Source: Halobacterium wangiae (GTDB lineage: Archaea > Halobacteriota > Halobacteria > Halobacteriales > Halobacteriaceae). Taken from it: a stretch of DNA of 64,000 nt. The first letter of the stretch is position 1; the number at the start of each line of letters is the position of its first letter. Under the pieces are notes generated by a model. It was given only the letters and a program-made list of their open reading frames with translations, had not been told where the DNA came from and did no database searches. The position numbers were made by a program, and so were the translations under genes. Shown one piece after another: positions 8,087 to 41,905 of this stretch. The DNA is taken from the NCBI RefSeq assembly GCF_021249345.1, contig NZ_CP089588.1, forward strand, positions 992,001 to 1,056,000, in the 5' to 3' direction.

Positions 8087-8421
8087 GCCCCCCTGTTGAA
8101 CGGGCCGTGGTTTAGCCGGTTCGGTTGGCCCAGCAGCAATCCTTAATGATTATTAATACCCTTTTCCACATACCTGCATGATTATTCATTAACTTTATTC
8201 GCGTCACCGCCGCCTGTCTGGTCGTCGTGCTCGCAGCACACAGCCACGAACGGACTCGCACCACCCGCCGACCACCCAGAGACCGACGGAGACCCACCTG
8301 ATGCCCCGATACACCGACATCGAGAACACCGGCATGCCAGTCGTGCCAGACCTCAGAACGGACGCCGACCGCCAGCAGTGCCTCGAAGAGACCGTCCAGA
8401 GCCACCGACTCCCACCCACCG
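8087..8421. other. Long intergenic leader upstream of aceA
   Basis: This is the only gap above 300 nt between confident genes. Its left part (8135-8200) is the most AT-rich stretch nearby and holds two similar blocks, AATGATTATTAAT and CATGATTATTCATTA. ACTTTATTCGCG near 8190-8201 could be the aceA promoter, giving a leader of roughly 200 nt. Inside lie a possible 24-codon GTG ORF (8227-8301) and the coupled 42-aa ORF at 8301-8429. The SWIM gene promoter must lie at the left edge. Confidence 0.5.
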
Positions 8422-36726: not shown

Positions 36727-38163
36727 CTACACCGCGGCCGAGAGCACGCCGCTGGTGCGGACGTAGAAGTAGACGATGAACAGCCCGGCGAGCACCCACT
36801 GACCGACGTGAACGTCGTCCCACTCGCCCACAGCGCCCTTGACGATGGGGTAGGAGACGATGCCGGCCGCGAGGCCGTACGCGATGGAGAACGTGAACGG
36901 CATCACGAAGACGGTGAGCGCGGCGGGGATGGCGTACGTGACGTCCTGCCACGCGATCTCGGCGACGTTCGCGAGCATGATGATGCCGACGACGACGAGC
37001 ACGAGGTGGCTCGCGTACGTCGGGATGGCGACGGCCAGCGGGACGACGGCCAGGCTGAGGACGAACAGCACGGCGACGACGAGCGCCGTCAGCCCGGTGC
37101 GACCGCCCTCCTCGACGCCGGTGGCGGACTCGATGTACGTCGTGACGGTGGACGTGCCGAGCATCCCGCCAACGGTGGTGCCGATGGCGTCAGCCATCAG
37201 CGGCTTGTCGATGTCGGGGAGGTTGCCGTCCTCGTCGAGGAAGCCGGCGGCCTGCCCGACGCCGGTGAGCGTGCCGGCAGTGTCGAAGAAGTCCACGAAG
37301 AAGAACGTGAAGACGATGAGCGCGAACGACACGCCCTCGATGTTCTCGAGGCCGGTCACGAACGCGCCGGCCAGCGGCGTGATGTCGTAGCTGGCGGCGT
37401 TGTAGGTGATGGGCGCGTCGGGGACCAGCGGCACCGGCGACTGAAGGGTGGCGCCGTAGATCTCCGTGGCCTTCGCGGCCGGGTATGCGGCGTAGTCGAG
37501 TGCGCTGGCGGCGTAACCGAGCAGACTCGTCGCGATGATGCCGACGACGATGCTTCCGGTGACGCCGCGGGCGTACAGCGCCAGTGTCAACAGCAGTCCG
37601 ACGACGCTGACGATGGCGACGGGGTCGCTCGCGAACACCGGGCTGAACCCGACGAAGGTGGCGGGGTCGCCGACGACGACCCGCATCTCCTGCAGTCCGA
37701 TGATGGCGAGGAAGAGTCCGATACCCGCTCCGACGGCGAGTTTGACGGGCTCGGGGAACAGTTTGATGATGTACTCGCGGGCGCCGACGGCGGTGAGCGC
37801 GATGAAGATGACGCCCTCCACGACGACGGCGGCGAGTGCGGTCTGCCAGGCGACGCCGAGGCCGAGGACGACCGTGTACGCGAAGAACGCGTTGAGGCCG
37901 AGGCCGGGCGCCTGCGCGAACGGTCTGTTGGCGTACAGCGCCATCACGAGCGTCGCCGTGGCGGCGGCGATCAGCGTGACGACCGCGATCATCTGGAACG
38001 TGCGCTCCGGACCGATACCGTCGATCTGGATGGCGTCCGCAAGGATGACCGGGTTGACGACGACGATGTAGGACATCGTCAGGAACGTGGTGATGCCGGC
38101 GATCAGTTCGGTACTGACGTCCGTGTCGTGTTCGTCGAGTGCGAAGTAGTCAGCGAGCCCCAT
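36727..38163 (-). CDS. NCS2 family purine permease (AzgA/PbuG type)
   Basis: A 478-aa membrane transporter of about 13-14 helices. Its N-terminus STELIAGITTFLTMSYIVVV followed by NPVILADA is the hallmark of the AzgA/PbuG branch of NCS2, which takes up adenine, hypoxanthine or guanine by proton symport. DFFDTAGTLTGVGQAAGF (about 289-306) and TSTVTTYIESATGVEEGGRTG are the substrate-binding segments. Two copies of ATGCACGTTCG flank its TATA box. An HTH-phosphoribosyltransferase gene is 147 nt upstream on the same strand. Confidence 0.88.
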   Translation of the reverse strand: MGLADYFALDEHDTDVSTELIAGITTFLTMSYIVVVNPVILADAIQIDGIGPERTFQMIAVVTLIAAATATLVMALYANRPFAQAPGLGLNAFFAYTVVLGLGVAWQTALAAVVVEGVIFIALTAVGAREYIIKLFPEPVKLAVGAGIGLFLAIIGLQEMRVVVGDPATFVGFSPVFASDPVAIVSVVGLLLTLALYARGVTGSIVVGIIATSLLGYAASALDYAAYPAAKATEIYGATLQSPVPLVPDAPITYNAASYDITPLAGAFVTGLENIEGVSFALIVFTFFFVDFFDTAGTLTGVGQAAGFLDEDGNLPDIDKPLMADAIGTTVGGMLGTSTVTTYIESATGVEEGGRTGLTALVVAVLFVLSLAVVPLAVAIPTYASHLVLVVVGIIMLANVAEIAWQDVTYAIPAALTVFVMPFTFSIAYGLAAGIVSYPIVKGAVGEWDDVHVGQWVLAGLFIVYFYVRTSGVLSAAV

Positions 38164-38164
38164 G

Positions 38165-38175
38165 ATGCACGTTCG
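38165..38175. promoter_or_regulatory. Operator-like repeat at the purine permease start, copy 1
   Basis: ATGCACGTTCG (minus strand CGAACGTGCAT) lies over the predicted transcription start of the NCS2 gene. It repeats exactly at 38208-38218. Placement over the start would suit repression. Confidence 0.45.
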
Positions 38176-38207
38176 AGCACATCGGCACCAGAGTATTAAG
38201 CATTGTT

Positions 38208-38218
38208 ATGCACGTTCG
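38208..38218. promoter_or_regulatory. Operator-like repeat upstream of the purine permease TATA, copy 2
   Basis: Second exact copy of ATGCACGTTCG, 43 nt from copy 1 and just upstream of the TATA-like CTTAATAC (minus strand, 38192-38199). An inverted partial copy, CGTGCAT, follows at 38224-38230. A related ACGCACGTTT stands before the HTH-PRTase gene. Confidence 0.45.
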
Positions 38219-38310
38219 TCCTTCGTGCATCCCAACACGTTCTAGAGGGCGAGGATGAGCACAGGCGTGTACAGAATCGGCCGATCTGCGGGGTCGAGCG
38301 GACCGACGGG

Positions 38311-39024
38311 TCAGTCGAGGTGTGCGAGTGCGCCGACCGGAGCGTCCGTGAGGGCGCGGGCACGTTCGATACCCTCCTCGCCGGCTGCGATGAGTGTGAA
38401 CACGCCGGTGACGTCGGCGTCGGCGGCGTGTGCGATGTCGAGGAGGAGTTCTTGGGTCTCGCCCGAGCGGATGAGGTCGTCGACGACGAGCACCGTGTCG
38501 CCCGCACCGATGGCCGCCGCCGGCAGGTAGTAGGTCAGTTCGATGCCCGAGTCGAGGCGCTGGCGGGCCTCGATGAACTCCTCGACGGCGGTCTCCTTGG
38601 ACTTCTTCGCGTACGCGCAGTCGGCGCCGTAGTAGGAGGCCAGCGCGGCGGCGAGCGTGATGCCGTCGGTGGCCGCGGTGAGCACGACGTCGGGGCGCTC
38701 GAAGTCGAACGTCTCGGCGGTGACGGGCGCCGCCAGGTCGAGGAACGACTGGTCGAAGACGACGCCGGAGTTGTCCACGTAGCCCTCGTCATCGACGCGC
38801 ACGCGGGAGGTCAGCTCTTCGCGCAGCAGGTCGGCGCCGGCGTCGCTGACGACCGCCTCCGCGCGGTCCGCGCTCGGGAGGACGTGGCCGTTGACGTAGC
38901 GGTTCAGGTCGCCGGCGGGGAGGCCCGTCTCCGCGGAGAGTTCGTCGTAGGTGCGGGTCTCCTTCAGCGTCCGCAGGACCGCGACGGCCTGCAACTGCAG
39001 GGCCGCCTTCTCGGCTCGGTTCAT
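38311..39024 (-). CDS. Phosphoribosyltransferase-like regulator with N-terminal HTH
   Basis: A 237-aa protein joining an N-terminal HTH (TRTYDELSAETGLPAGDLNR, about 23-42) to a type-I phosphoribosyltransferase domain. The PRPP-binding motif is VLVVDDLIRSGETQ (about 180-193); TAATDGITLAAALASYYGAD is the PPi-loop region. It resembles bacterial PurR-type repressors, where a PRTase fold senses PRPP and has lost catalysis; whether it is still an enzyme is open. I start at ATG 39024. A motif related to that of the permease lies in its promoter, so it probably controls both. Confidence 0.85.
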   Translation of the reverse strand: MNRAEKAALQLQAVAVLRTLKETRTYDELSAETGLPAGDLNRYVNGHVLPSADRAEAVVSDAGADLLREELTSRVRVDDEGYVDNSGVVFDQSFLDLAAPVTAETFDFERPDVVLTAATDGITLAAALASYYGADCAYAKKSKETAVEEFIEARQRLDSGIELTYYLPAAAIGAGDTVLVVDDLIRSGETQELLLDIAHAADADVTGVFTLIAAGEEGIERARALTDAPVGALAHLD

Positions 39025-39030
39025 ACGAGT

Positions 39031-39040
39031 ACGCACGTTT
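39031..39040. promoter_or_regulatory. Operator-like motif in the HTH-PRTase promoter
   Basis: ACGCACGTTT (minus strand AAACGTGCGT) lies between the TATA-like TATTCAAG (39048-39055, minus) and the ATG at 39024. It shares AACGTGC with the two sites before the purine permease, suggesting autoregulation. Confidence 0.4.
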
Positions 39041-39146
39041 CCACAAACTTGAATACCTCGAAACGGTTCGGCCGGGAAGGAACCACGAACGCGCTGTGCC
39101 CCGCGACGGCTGCTGGACCGTCAGTGACCGTGGCTCCGACGCCGGG

Positions 39147-39671
39147 TCACGCTGAATCGAGCAGGTCGCTCGCCGTGACGAGCGCCTCCATCTCGACGCC
39201 GTGCTCGGCGAGCAGGTCGCGGCCACCCTCCTCCCTGTCGACCACGAGCAGCGCCCGGTTCACCGTTGCGCCGGCGTCGCGAAGCGCCGTCACGGCGTCC
39301 ATCGCCGACTGCCCGGTGGTGGCGATGTCCTCGACGACGACGACCTCCTCGCCGTCGTCGAGGCGGCCCTCGATGCGGTTGCCCGTGCCGTACTCCTTGG
39401 CCTGCTTGCGCGCGATGACGTACGGGACGTCCGCGACCACGGACGTCGCGGCGGCGAGGGGCACGCCGCCGAGTGCCACGCCGCCGAGTTTCGTCCCGGG
39501 GTCGACGCGCTCCGCGAACGCCTCCGCGATGGCGCGCAGGCACTCTGGGTCCGTCTCGAAGAGGTACTTGTCCACGTAGTACTCCGAGGTGCCGCCGTGG
39601 GAGAGTTCGAACTCGCCGAACTGGACGGCGTCCGCGTCCCGCAGCGCCGCGATGAGGTCGTCGTTCGCCAT
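39147..39671 (-). CDS. pyrE: Orotate phosphoribosyltransferase
   Basis: A 174-aa enzyme that attaches PRPP-derived ribose 5-phosphate to orotate, giving OMP in pyrimidine synthesis. Markers: [20 protein letters not shown] (about 22-41), [35 protein letters not shown] (catalytic Lys region) and PRPP motif [18 protein letters not shown] (about 110-127). Standard length. No AACGTGC motif occurs at its promoter, so it is not obviously part of the neighbouring purine control. Confidence 0.94.
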
Positions 39672-41065: not shown

Positions 41066-41905
41066 ATGATACCGCCCATCGCGAGTCGGTTCGTCGCGGG
41101 GGAGTCACCTGCGGCGGCGTTAGACCACGTCGACGACCTGAACGACCAGGGGGTGAAGGCGATCCTCAACCTGCTCGGCGAGCACTACGAGGAGCGCCCG
41201 CCCGCCGACGAGGACGCGGCAGCGTACGAGGACCTCGTCCGGGACATCTCGGGGAGCGGGCTGGACGCCTGCATCTCCGTGAAGCCCTCGCAGATCGGCC
41301 TCGACGTCGGCGACGACGTGTTCGCGGAGAACCTCGCGGACATCGCCGCGGTGGCCGACGAGCACGGCGTGTTCACGTGGGTGGACATGGAGGACCACGA
41401 GACGACCGACGCGACGCTGGACGCCTTCGAGGACCTCACGACCGAGTACGAGGGCGGCGTCGGCGTCTGCGTGCAGGCGAACCTCAAGCGGACGGAGGAG
41501 GACCTCGAACGCCTCGCCGACCTCCCGGGGAAGGTACGCCTCGTCAAGGGCGCGTACGACGAGCCGCGGGAGCTCGCGTACAAGAACAAAGAGCGCGTCA
41601 ACGAGGCCTACCGGACCTACCTGAAGTTCATGTTCCAGGAGTTCGACGACGGCGTCGCGGTGGGGAGCCACGACCCCGAGATGATTGCACTCGCCCGCGA
41701 CCTCCACGACGAGTACGGGACGGACTACGAGATCCAGATGCTGATGGGCGTGCGCGACGACGCGCAGGTCGAACTCGCGGCGGAGGACGTCGAGGTCTGG
41801 CAGTACGTGCCGTACGGCGACAAGTGGTTCTCGTACTTCTACCGGCGTGCGATGGAGCGCAAGGAGAACATGCTGTTCGCGCTGCGGGCCGTCCTCGGGC
41901 GGTAG
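41066..41905 (+). CDS. Proline dehydrogenase
   Basis: A 279-aa FAD enzyme of the monofunctional PRODH family that oxidises proline to pyrroline-5-carboxylate. Markers: FTWVDMEDHETTDATLDAFE (about 101-120), GVCVQANLKRTEEDLERL, KVRLVKGAYDEPRELAYKNK, DYEIQMLMGVRDDAQ and the C-terminal YVPYGDKWFSYFYRRAMER with the substrate-binding RR. ATG 41066 is chosen since the longer frame runs over the divergent carS start. No P5C dehydrogenase is adjacent. A DUF502 gene follows. Confidence 0.9.
   Translation: MIPPIASRFVAGESPAAALDHVDDLNDQGVKAILNLLGEHYEERPPADEDAAAYEDLVRDISGSGLDACISVKPSQIGLDVGDDVFAENLADIAAVADEHGVFTWVDMEDHETTDATLDAFEDLTTEYEGGVGVCVQANLKRTEEDLERLADLPGKVRLVKGAYDEPRELAYKNKERVNEAYRTYLKFMFQEFDDGVAVGSHDPEMIALARDLHDEYGTDYEIQMLMGVRDDAQVELAAEDVEVWQYVPYGDKWFSYFYRRAMERKENMLFALRAVLGR

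Follow-up and report, generated by a model that had tools for sequence, protein, structure and literature searches.

A candidate purine regulator of the HTH-PRTase type in haloarchaea and its predicted 18-bp palindromic operator

The genome of the haloarchaeon Halobacterium wangiae consists of one contig of 3.11 Mb, and the 64-kb stretch analyzed here (henceforth the window) carries on its minus strand, in this order, pyrE, a gene encoding a 237-residue protein that joins an HTH to a PRTase fold (henceforth HTH-PRTase, ATG at 39024) and an NCS2 permease gene (Table 1). A preliminary description of the locus had reported two exact copies of an 11-nt motif flanking the permease TATA, and the sequence AAACGTGCGT between the TATA and the start of the HTH-PRTase gene. 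An exact search of the window bore out both: CGAACGTGCAT occurs on the minus strand at 38165-38175 and 38208-38218, on either side of the TATA-like stretch CTTAATAC (38193-38200), the proximal copy being separated by one base from the permease ATG at 38163, and AAACGTGCGT lies at 39031-39040, also on the minus strand, between the TATA-like GTATTCAAG and the HTH-PRTase ATG. No further exact copy of CGAACGTGCAT exists in the 3,112,195-base genome, and the reversed control pattern gave none. With up to two mismatches, however, the window holds no excess of the motif (14 matches versus 22.4 expected), so that the 11-mer alone is weak evidence. PADLOC returned no result.

Table 1. Genes and predicted operator sites at the permease and HTH-PRTase promoters (window positions).
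Feature	Position	Strand	Basis or score
HTH-PRTase, 237 aa, proposed purine regulator	38311..39024	-	NF006328/PRK08558, PF00156, AlphaFold/Foldseek
NCS2-family nucleobase permease (PF00860), downstream target	36727..38163	-	PF00860 E=2.7e-42
Predicted operator directly before permease start, TGTGCTCGAACGTGCATC	38164..38181	-	17.0 bits; contains one 11-mer
Predicted operator upstream of permease TATA, GAAGGACGAACGTGCATA	38207..38224	-	14.9 bits; contains other 11-mer
Possible third, weak permease site, TGTACACGCCTGTGCTCA	38256..38273	-	12.4 bits; not separable from chance
Predicted operator on regulator's own TATA box, TATTCAAGTTTGTGGAAA	39038..39055	-	16.3 bits
AAACGTGCGT, overlapping register at regulator	39031..39040	-	2.5 bits in H. 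wangiae
Degenerate upstream operator of regulator, ACAGCGCGTTCGTGGTTC	39080..39097	-	4.4 bits
pyrE, neighbour without operator, negative control	39147..39671	-	TIGR00336 144 bits

The promoters of HTH-PRTase orthologues and of the permeases gave the motif its full shape. In the best 80 of 156 orthologues with flanks, all from named haloarchaeal genomes, these promoters repeatedly contain a palindrome of the form ATCCACGTTCGTGGAT, whose right half is the motif of the preliminary description; CGAACGTGCAT is half of an 18-bp palindrome, TATnCACGnnCGTGnATA, which the motif search on purine promoters described below recovered. The 11-mer as a binding unit was therefore rejected, being half of a palindrome and unenriched at two mismatches. 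A permease gene follows on the same strand within 700 nt at 52 of the 80 orthologous loci and at 3.1 kb at one more, and none was found within the available flanking sequence at the other 27. Palindromic EM (a motif search) on the regulator and permease promoters alone converged on TATGCACAATTGTGCATA, in which the operator is probably mixed with the conserved TATA region.

We ran palindromic EM from random starts on the promoters of purF, purD, purS and purL, each gene alone, from H. wangiae and 29 genomes of named organisms (29 or 30 sequences per run; one purF locus, L148, where the match begins inside the gene, was omitted, purL is missing from G017, and purF start codons were picked by a script rule). 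Every run returned the same palindrome (TATnCACGATCGTGnATA, TATnCACGnnCGTGnATA, TATnCACGTACGTGnATA and TATGCACGTACGTGCATA), with site fractions of 0.90, 0.95, 0.97 and 0.96, and the pooled motif carries 18.9 bits, compared with 6.7 in shuffled sequence. At a threshold of 10 bits, the matrix built from purF recognizes 27/29 purL, 27/30 purS and 23/30 purD promoters, together with 51 of 56 permease promoters (among them that of the window and some that belong to a second copy of the permease) and 34 of 81 regulator promoters. The latter are the weaker targets, with 34 to 57 of the 81 reaching 10 bits depending on the matrix. No control promoter or stretch reached that threshold with the purF matrix (pyrE 0/30, carS 0/15, 3' flanks 0/119, coding stretches 0/119); the purL matrix scored one of the 119 coding stretches, and shuffled promoters passed in 11 of 1180 cases with the purF matrix and in 1-2% overall. 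The earlier remark that pyrE lacks the motif holds: whichever of five matrices is used, 0/30 pyrE promoters score 10 bits or more.

The operators are also placed with near-constant spacing. Among sites of at least 10 bits, the distance from the 5' end of the operator to the start codon is 58 nt in 27/27 purL promoters, 68 nt in 26/27 purS promoters, 72-73 nt in 22/23 purD promoters and 90-93 nt in 28/28 purF promoters, and at all four genes the operator lies upstream of a conserved BRE/TATA-like stretch. A motif confined to Halobacterium was considered and rejected, as the permease sites match the class-wide palindrome.

We then scored the window with a pooled matrix trained on the purF, purD, purS and purL promoters of the 30 genomes, including H. 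wangiae, from which the promoters of the window were excluded. The three top scores in the 64 kb fall directly before the permease start, on the TATA box of the regulator and upstream of the permease TATA (17.0, 16.3 and 14.9 bits). Three places reach at least 14 bits, compared with 0.225 expected in second-order Markov sequence, and seven reach at least 12 bits, compared with 0.7 expected. Further palindrome-like places of 12.7-12.9 bits occur at 2535-2552, 8163-8180 and 41370-41387, the one at 41370 inside an open reading frame. At the regulator, AAACGTGCGT as the main site was rejected on its score (2.5 bits versus 16.3 for the TATA-box site); by eye, its register suits Natrialbales promoters better. 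The TATA region of the regulator is conserved in orthologous promoters, and many orthologues have a better palindrome (e.g. ACCACGTTCGTGGATA) at the place matching the degenerate upstream site.

When the whole H. wangiae genome was scanned for the palindrome, places immediately upstream of purF, purD and purS emerged, and later one upstream of purA; family matches confirmed the identity of the genes. The first, loose pattern returned 215 places versus 120 for the control, mostly noise. With the refined pattern, purF is preceded by the sole exact match and purD by the sole place with one mismatch, with operator sites also at purS, purA and purL; at up to three mismatches there are 141 places versus 15 for the reversed pattern, and many of the 141 must be noise. 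Footprints had supplied the loose pattern, and the first hits shaped the refined one, which makes the ranks in H. wangiae partly circular; the EM on four genes and the scan of eight genomes described below are cleaner tests, although seven of the 16 places in the latter are at training genes. Four places in H. wangiae with no known link to purine genes (99657, 252968, 1214627 and 947088, the last inside a lysS-like frame) score 14-15 bits, which equals the weaker permease site; a single weak site consequently proves nothing. In addition, a PurN/PurU-like formyltransferase frame lies near purS of H. wangiae (L114, 3173-3550); it resembles the PurN part of a purN-H fusion (40% identity over 133 residues).

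Extending the scan to eight genomes, palindromes with at most one mismatch occur at 16 places, compared with none for the reversed pattern, and all 16 are at purine, folD or permease genes. By gene, they fall at purF (four), purL (two), purS (one), purK(E) (two), purA (two) and purC (one), between a purN-H fusion and purB (two), upstream of folD (one) and at a permease not linked to the regulator (one); nine are at genes outside the training data. Haloferax prahovense, one of the eight, has no place at this threshold. The folD operator, in a Halorussus genome (G011, L362 1501-1518, one mismatch), overlaps the end of glyA and would link one-carbon supply to purine control. Across the purA operator, a small conserved protein (MIDRLEKEVDMLERHLQVLKMVIE...) is encoded divergently in two genera (L357 1694-1999 and L116 2812-3114); it may be a further member of the regulon or a mere neighbour. 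The preliminary description had predicted a small purine regulon and proposed a genome scan for the motif near promoters of purine genes. The scan found purF, purD, purS, purA and purL in H. wangiae, and the operator is present before purF, purD, purS and purL in most of the 30 genomes; the predicted regulon is there, and it is more than a small one.

Of 392 genomes of the phylum, 68 have a full-length match to the family NF006328 above the cut-off, and all of these belong to the order of the window (Halobacteriales); two of 14 control genomes also exceed the cut-off, so that members of the family may exist outside the phylum sampled. Thirteen other genomes of the same order lack HTH-PRTase; these are all the same-order genomes without the gene among those listed, a listing from which 19 genomes without any match are absent. 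The absences are spread over several families. We compared these 13 with 17 carriers, hand-picked from the 68 and matched to them by family. In the absence of HTH-PRTase, 0/13 purL and 0/13 purD promoters reach 8 bits (the best purL score below this threshold is 7.5 bits, in G332), compared with 12/17 purL and 11/17 purD promoters of carriers (Fisher, 7e-5 for purL and 2e-4 for purD). Counted by genus, by hand, the purL contrast is 0/8 versus 9/13 (p=0.0024). The purL region of G342 is shifted, as its match began at residue 66, and the regions of G158 and G342 are the least certain. The operator is thus missing at purL and purD where HTH-PRTase is missing, which points to HTH-PRTase as the binder. 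Another factor lost along with HTH-PRTase could be the true binder; nevertheless, the natural co-absence of protein and operator makes the assignment much firmer than the motif alone would.

Some carriers depart from the pattern. Five of the 17 have no operator at either purL or purD, and G355 has none at purD. A script located the start of the regulator in three of these five, G298, G373 and G382 (L339, L342 and L343), and found none for L340/L341 (G308 and G413). All three have a site of 9.7-11.4 bits before the regulator although purL and purD lack the operator, and two of them have sites of 16-20 bits no more than 600 nt downstream of the regulator, where a permease is expected (its identity was not checked). 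Judged from these promoters, the regulon has apparently undergone a natural shrinkage towards the regulator and permease in the three genomes.

HTH-PRTase itself is a full-length match to NF006328 (PRK08558; 348.3 bits versus a cut-off of 184, residues 2-237), with a PF00156 match, and its closest named orthologues, among the best 80 of 156, are from Halobacterium species at 87% identity. NCBI names this family adenine phosphoribosyltransferase; in the absence of activity data, enzyme activity is not excluded. Across the window protein and the 80 orthologues, 38 of residues 1-62 are invariant, as are 73 of the remaining ~175, and the PRPP loop VVDDLIRSGET is invariant in the orthologues. The AlphaFold model (pLDDT 86) predicts four N-terminal helices followed by a type I PRTase fold. 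Its best solved neighbour by Foldseek is B. subtilis PurR (E=8.5e-12 to 7rmw_B), and VIA-align places it near XPRT (Z 21.5 over 173 residues, 2.2 A), APRT and PurR (1o57_A, Z 19.1, 193 aligned, rmsd 4.3 A). A PurR-like architecture had been claimed from the start; it stands for the PRTase fold, whereas the DNA-binding domain apparently departs from it. HTH-PRTase has no Pfam match to the PurR winged helix but weak ones to HTH_3/HTH_31. PF01381 (HTH_3) matches 35 of 41 orthologues at E<=1 (best 0.0043), and the window protein scores 13.5 bits against it, below the cut-off of 23. A model of the HTH alone had no confident Foldseek match, the weak ones being led by XRE proteins. The HTH is probably XRE-like, although the Pfam and Foldseek matches are weak. 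H. wangiae has nine PRTase-domain matches, including two HPT_Archaea-family enzymes and upp, as well as, by eye, a prs-like frame. Given the separate HPT_Archaea-family enzymes, purine salvage need not depend on HTH-PRTase.

Haloarchaeal purine genes reportedly are co-regulated, cycle with cell division and respond to purine levels, and as far as the available portions of three papers show, their regulator was left open in 2007, 2013 and 2015 (PMC1906763, PMC3794607, PMC4540570). In the parts available, Todor et al. 2013 (PMC3794607) infer a purine regulator independent of TrmB in H. salinarum, report no PurR homologue by sequence in this organism and give three network-inferred regulator candidates (VNG5009H, VNG2614H and VNG2163H). 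The accessible sections of PMC4540570 describe a drop of pur transcripts as purines rise in H. salinarum, low PRPP, low purines and raised pur transcripts in ΔtrmB cells without glucose, weak binding of TrmB at purine genes, and a TrmB site position relative to the start that decides between activation and repression. EGRIN 2.0 (PMC4299497) mentions a purine corem in Halobacterium, in passing in the portion consulted. We found no publication on HTH-PRTase, or naming it as a purine regulator, in the open-licence PMC literature, subscription papers being outside the scope of the search. The present analysis supplies a definite candidate protein together with an exactly defined operator and a list of targets, which can be tested in standard laboratory strains.

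We consider it very probable that HTH-PRTase is the regulator of a class-wide haloarchaeal purine regulon. Binding is an inference, with no binding or expression experiment; the operator, its placement, its target set and its co-absence with the protein are established by comparison of sequences, and the fold is a model prediction. HTH-PRTase would bind the TATnCACGnnCGTGnATA palindrome, presumably as a dimer, and control purF, purD, purS and purL, in the genomes looked at also purKE, purC, purN-H, purB and purA, and folD in at least one of them. The nucleobase permease and HTH-PRTase itself would complete the regulon. The PRTase fold would have been turned into a sensor of the purine state. 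Under purine scarcity, HTH-PRTase would occupy the operators just upstream of BRE/TATA and activate the pur genes; activation would cease once a purine base or nucleotide is bound. The site on the regulator's TATA box and the one immediately preceding the permease start would serve as an autoregulatory brake. Activation is suggested by the upstream operators at the pur genes, and local repression by the sites on the TATA box of the regulator and before the permease start. The direction is inferred, and we lean only slightly towards activation at the pur genes. The ligand is inferred as well; we think it reasonably likely that the main signal is a purine and not PRPP.

A variant with the same protein and operator, rather than a rival regulator, is a repressor with a purine co-repressor, following the logic of E. 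coli PurR: loaded with purine, HTH-PRTase would shut down the pur genes, and it would leave them when purines run short. It is quite possible, though we do not favor it. The sites before the permease start and on the TATA box of the regulator are classical repressor positions, but the operators at purL, purS, purD and purF lie upstream of BRE/TATA, a position more typical of archaeal activators. The fall of pur transcripts with rising purines in H. salinarum is what a co-repressor would produce, and the dependence of activation or repression on the position of the TrmB site speaks against this variant (both from the part of PMC4540570 available).

A repressor responding to PRPP, as in B. subtilis PurR, would be freed from its operator by PRPP on the PRTase domain. 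The invariant PRPP loop and a set of best structural neighbours that includes PurR with cPRPP speak for it, but the operator does not resemble the PurBox, and the DNA-binding domain is apparently of another type. The ΔtrmB cells without glucose, with low PRPP yet raised pur transcripts, show the opposite of what an inducing PRPP predicts (PMC4540570, as far as available), which makes a purine base or nucleotide the better ligand candidate; on these data, we rejected PRPP-induced derepression as the leading mechanism and regard such a repressor as improbable.

It is also conceivable, but very improbable, that HTH-PRTase is only a salvage enzyme (an adenine PRTase) and the target of another regulator. 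The NCBI equivalog name, the intact PRPP loop and an HTH-PRTase promoter that carries the operator like the other targets would fit, and other candidates have been proposed, not mapped to HTH-PRTase (PMC3794607, in the part available). Loss of a mere target, however, should leave the purL and purD operators in place, yet they are gone from all 13 genomes without the gene. Moreover, the N-terminal HTH is the more conserved part of the protein, and the genome has two separate HPT_Archaea-family enzymes. Finally, a chance motif or mere conservation of neighbouring promoters, compatible with the unenriched 11-mer, can be discounted, since unlinked genes share the palindrome at near-fixed distances in 30 genomes and the near-perfect sites of eight genomes are without exception at purine-related genes.

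The proposed regulation of the purine genes by HTH-PRTase can be compared with four known systems. The first is the motif of cell cycle cluster 3 of H. salinarum, a cluster that according to the available part of Baumann et al. 2007 (PMC1906763) is made only of purine genes, with the MEME consensus THTHCWYKRWSGTGK in six of seven purine promoters. Letter by letter, this consensus is compatible with TATnCACGAACGTGn, and the H. salinarum sites deviate from it by no mismatch at purD and two each at purS and purL; the purF site is poor (6.9 bits, five mismatches). Unlike the operator described here, the motif comes from one species, and the portion of PMC1906763 at hand states no palindrome, regulator or fixed distance to the start, and mentions neither the permease nor HTH-PRTase.

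The second is the PRK08558 adenine phosphoribosyltransferase, the sequence family of HTH-PRTase (348 bits versus a cut-off of 184), whose name implies an enzyme, whereas the regulon and the co-absence suggest a regulator, there being no activity data. The third is B. subtilis PurR, which likewise fuses a DNA-binding domain to a type I PRTase fold and controls purine genes, and whose PRTase part is the solved structure nearest to HTH-PRTase by sequence and among the best by fold. HTH-PRTase, however, scores only 44.1 bits against TIGR01743 (cut-off 258.7). PurR has a winged-helix N-terminus and its operators are paired PurBoxes, unlike the haloarchaeal 18-bp palindrome, whose sites relative to TATA suggest activation. 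GfcR, the fourth, is also a PRTase-type regulator of haloarchaea, with an HTH + PRTase layout, but it belongs to separate families (NF045507 and NF002620) and has a different regulon. NF045507 (cut-off 300 bits) is not among the 11 families that HTH-PRTase matches at E<=0.001, and NF002620 gives only 19 bits. GfcR is encoded by pyrE1 and activates glucose/fructose degradation in haloarchaea (PMC11519228, part of the text).

From these comparisons we put forward, tentatively and short of favoring it, that the assembly of a purine regulator in archaea was independent of PurR in bacteria. This regulator would combine an XRE-like HTH with an APRT-like PRTase whose catalysis has become dispensable, read purine nucleotides and not PRPP, activate nearly the whole IMP/AMP pathway through upstream operators, and keep its own gene and the permease in check. 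If this is true, haloarchaea have, counting GfcR, at least twice turned phosphoribosyltransferases into transcription factors that sense metabolites. Transcription factors based on PRTases are a known general kind, and it is the assignment of this regulator to this operator that is new.
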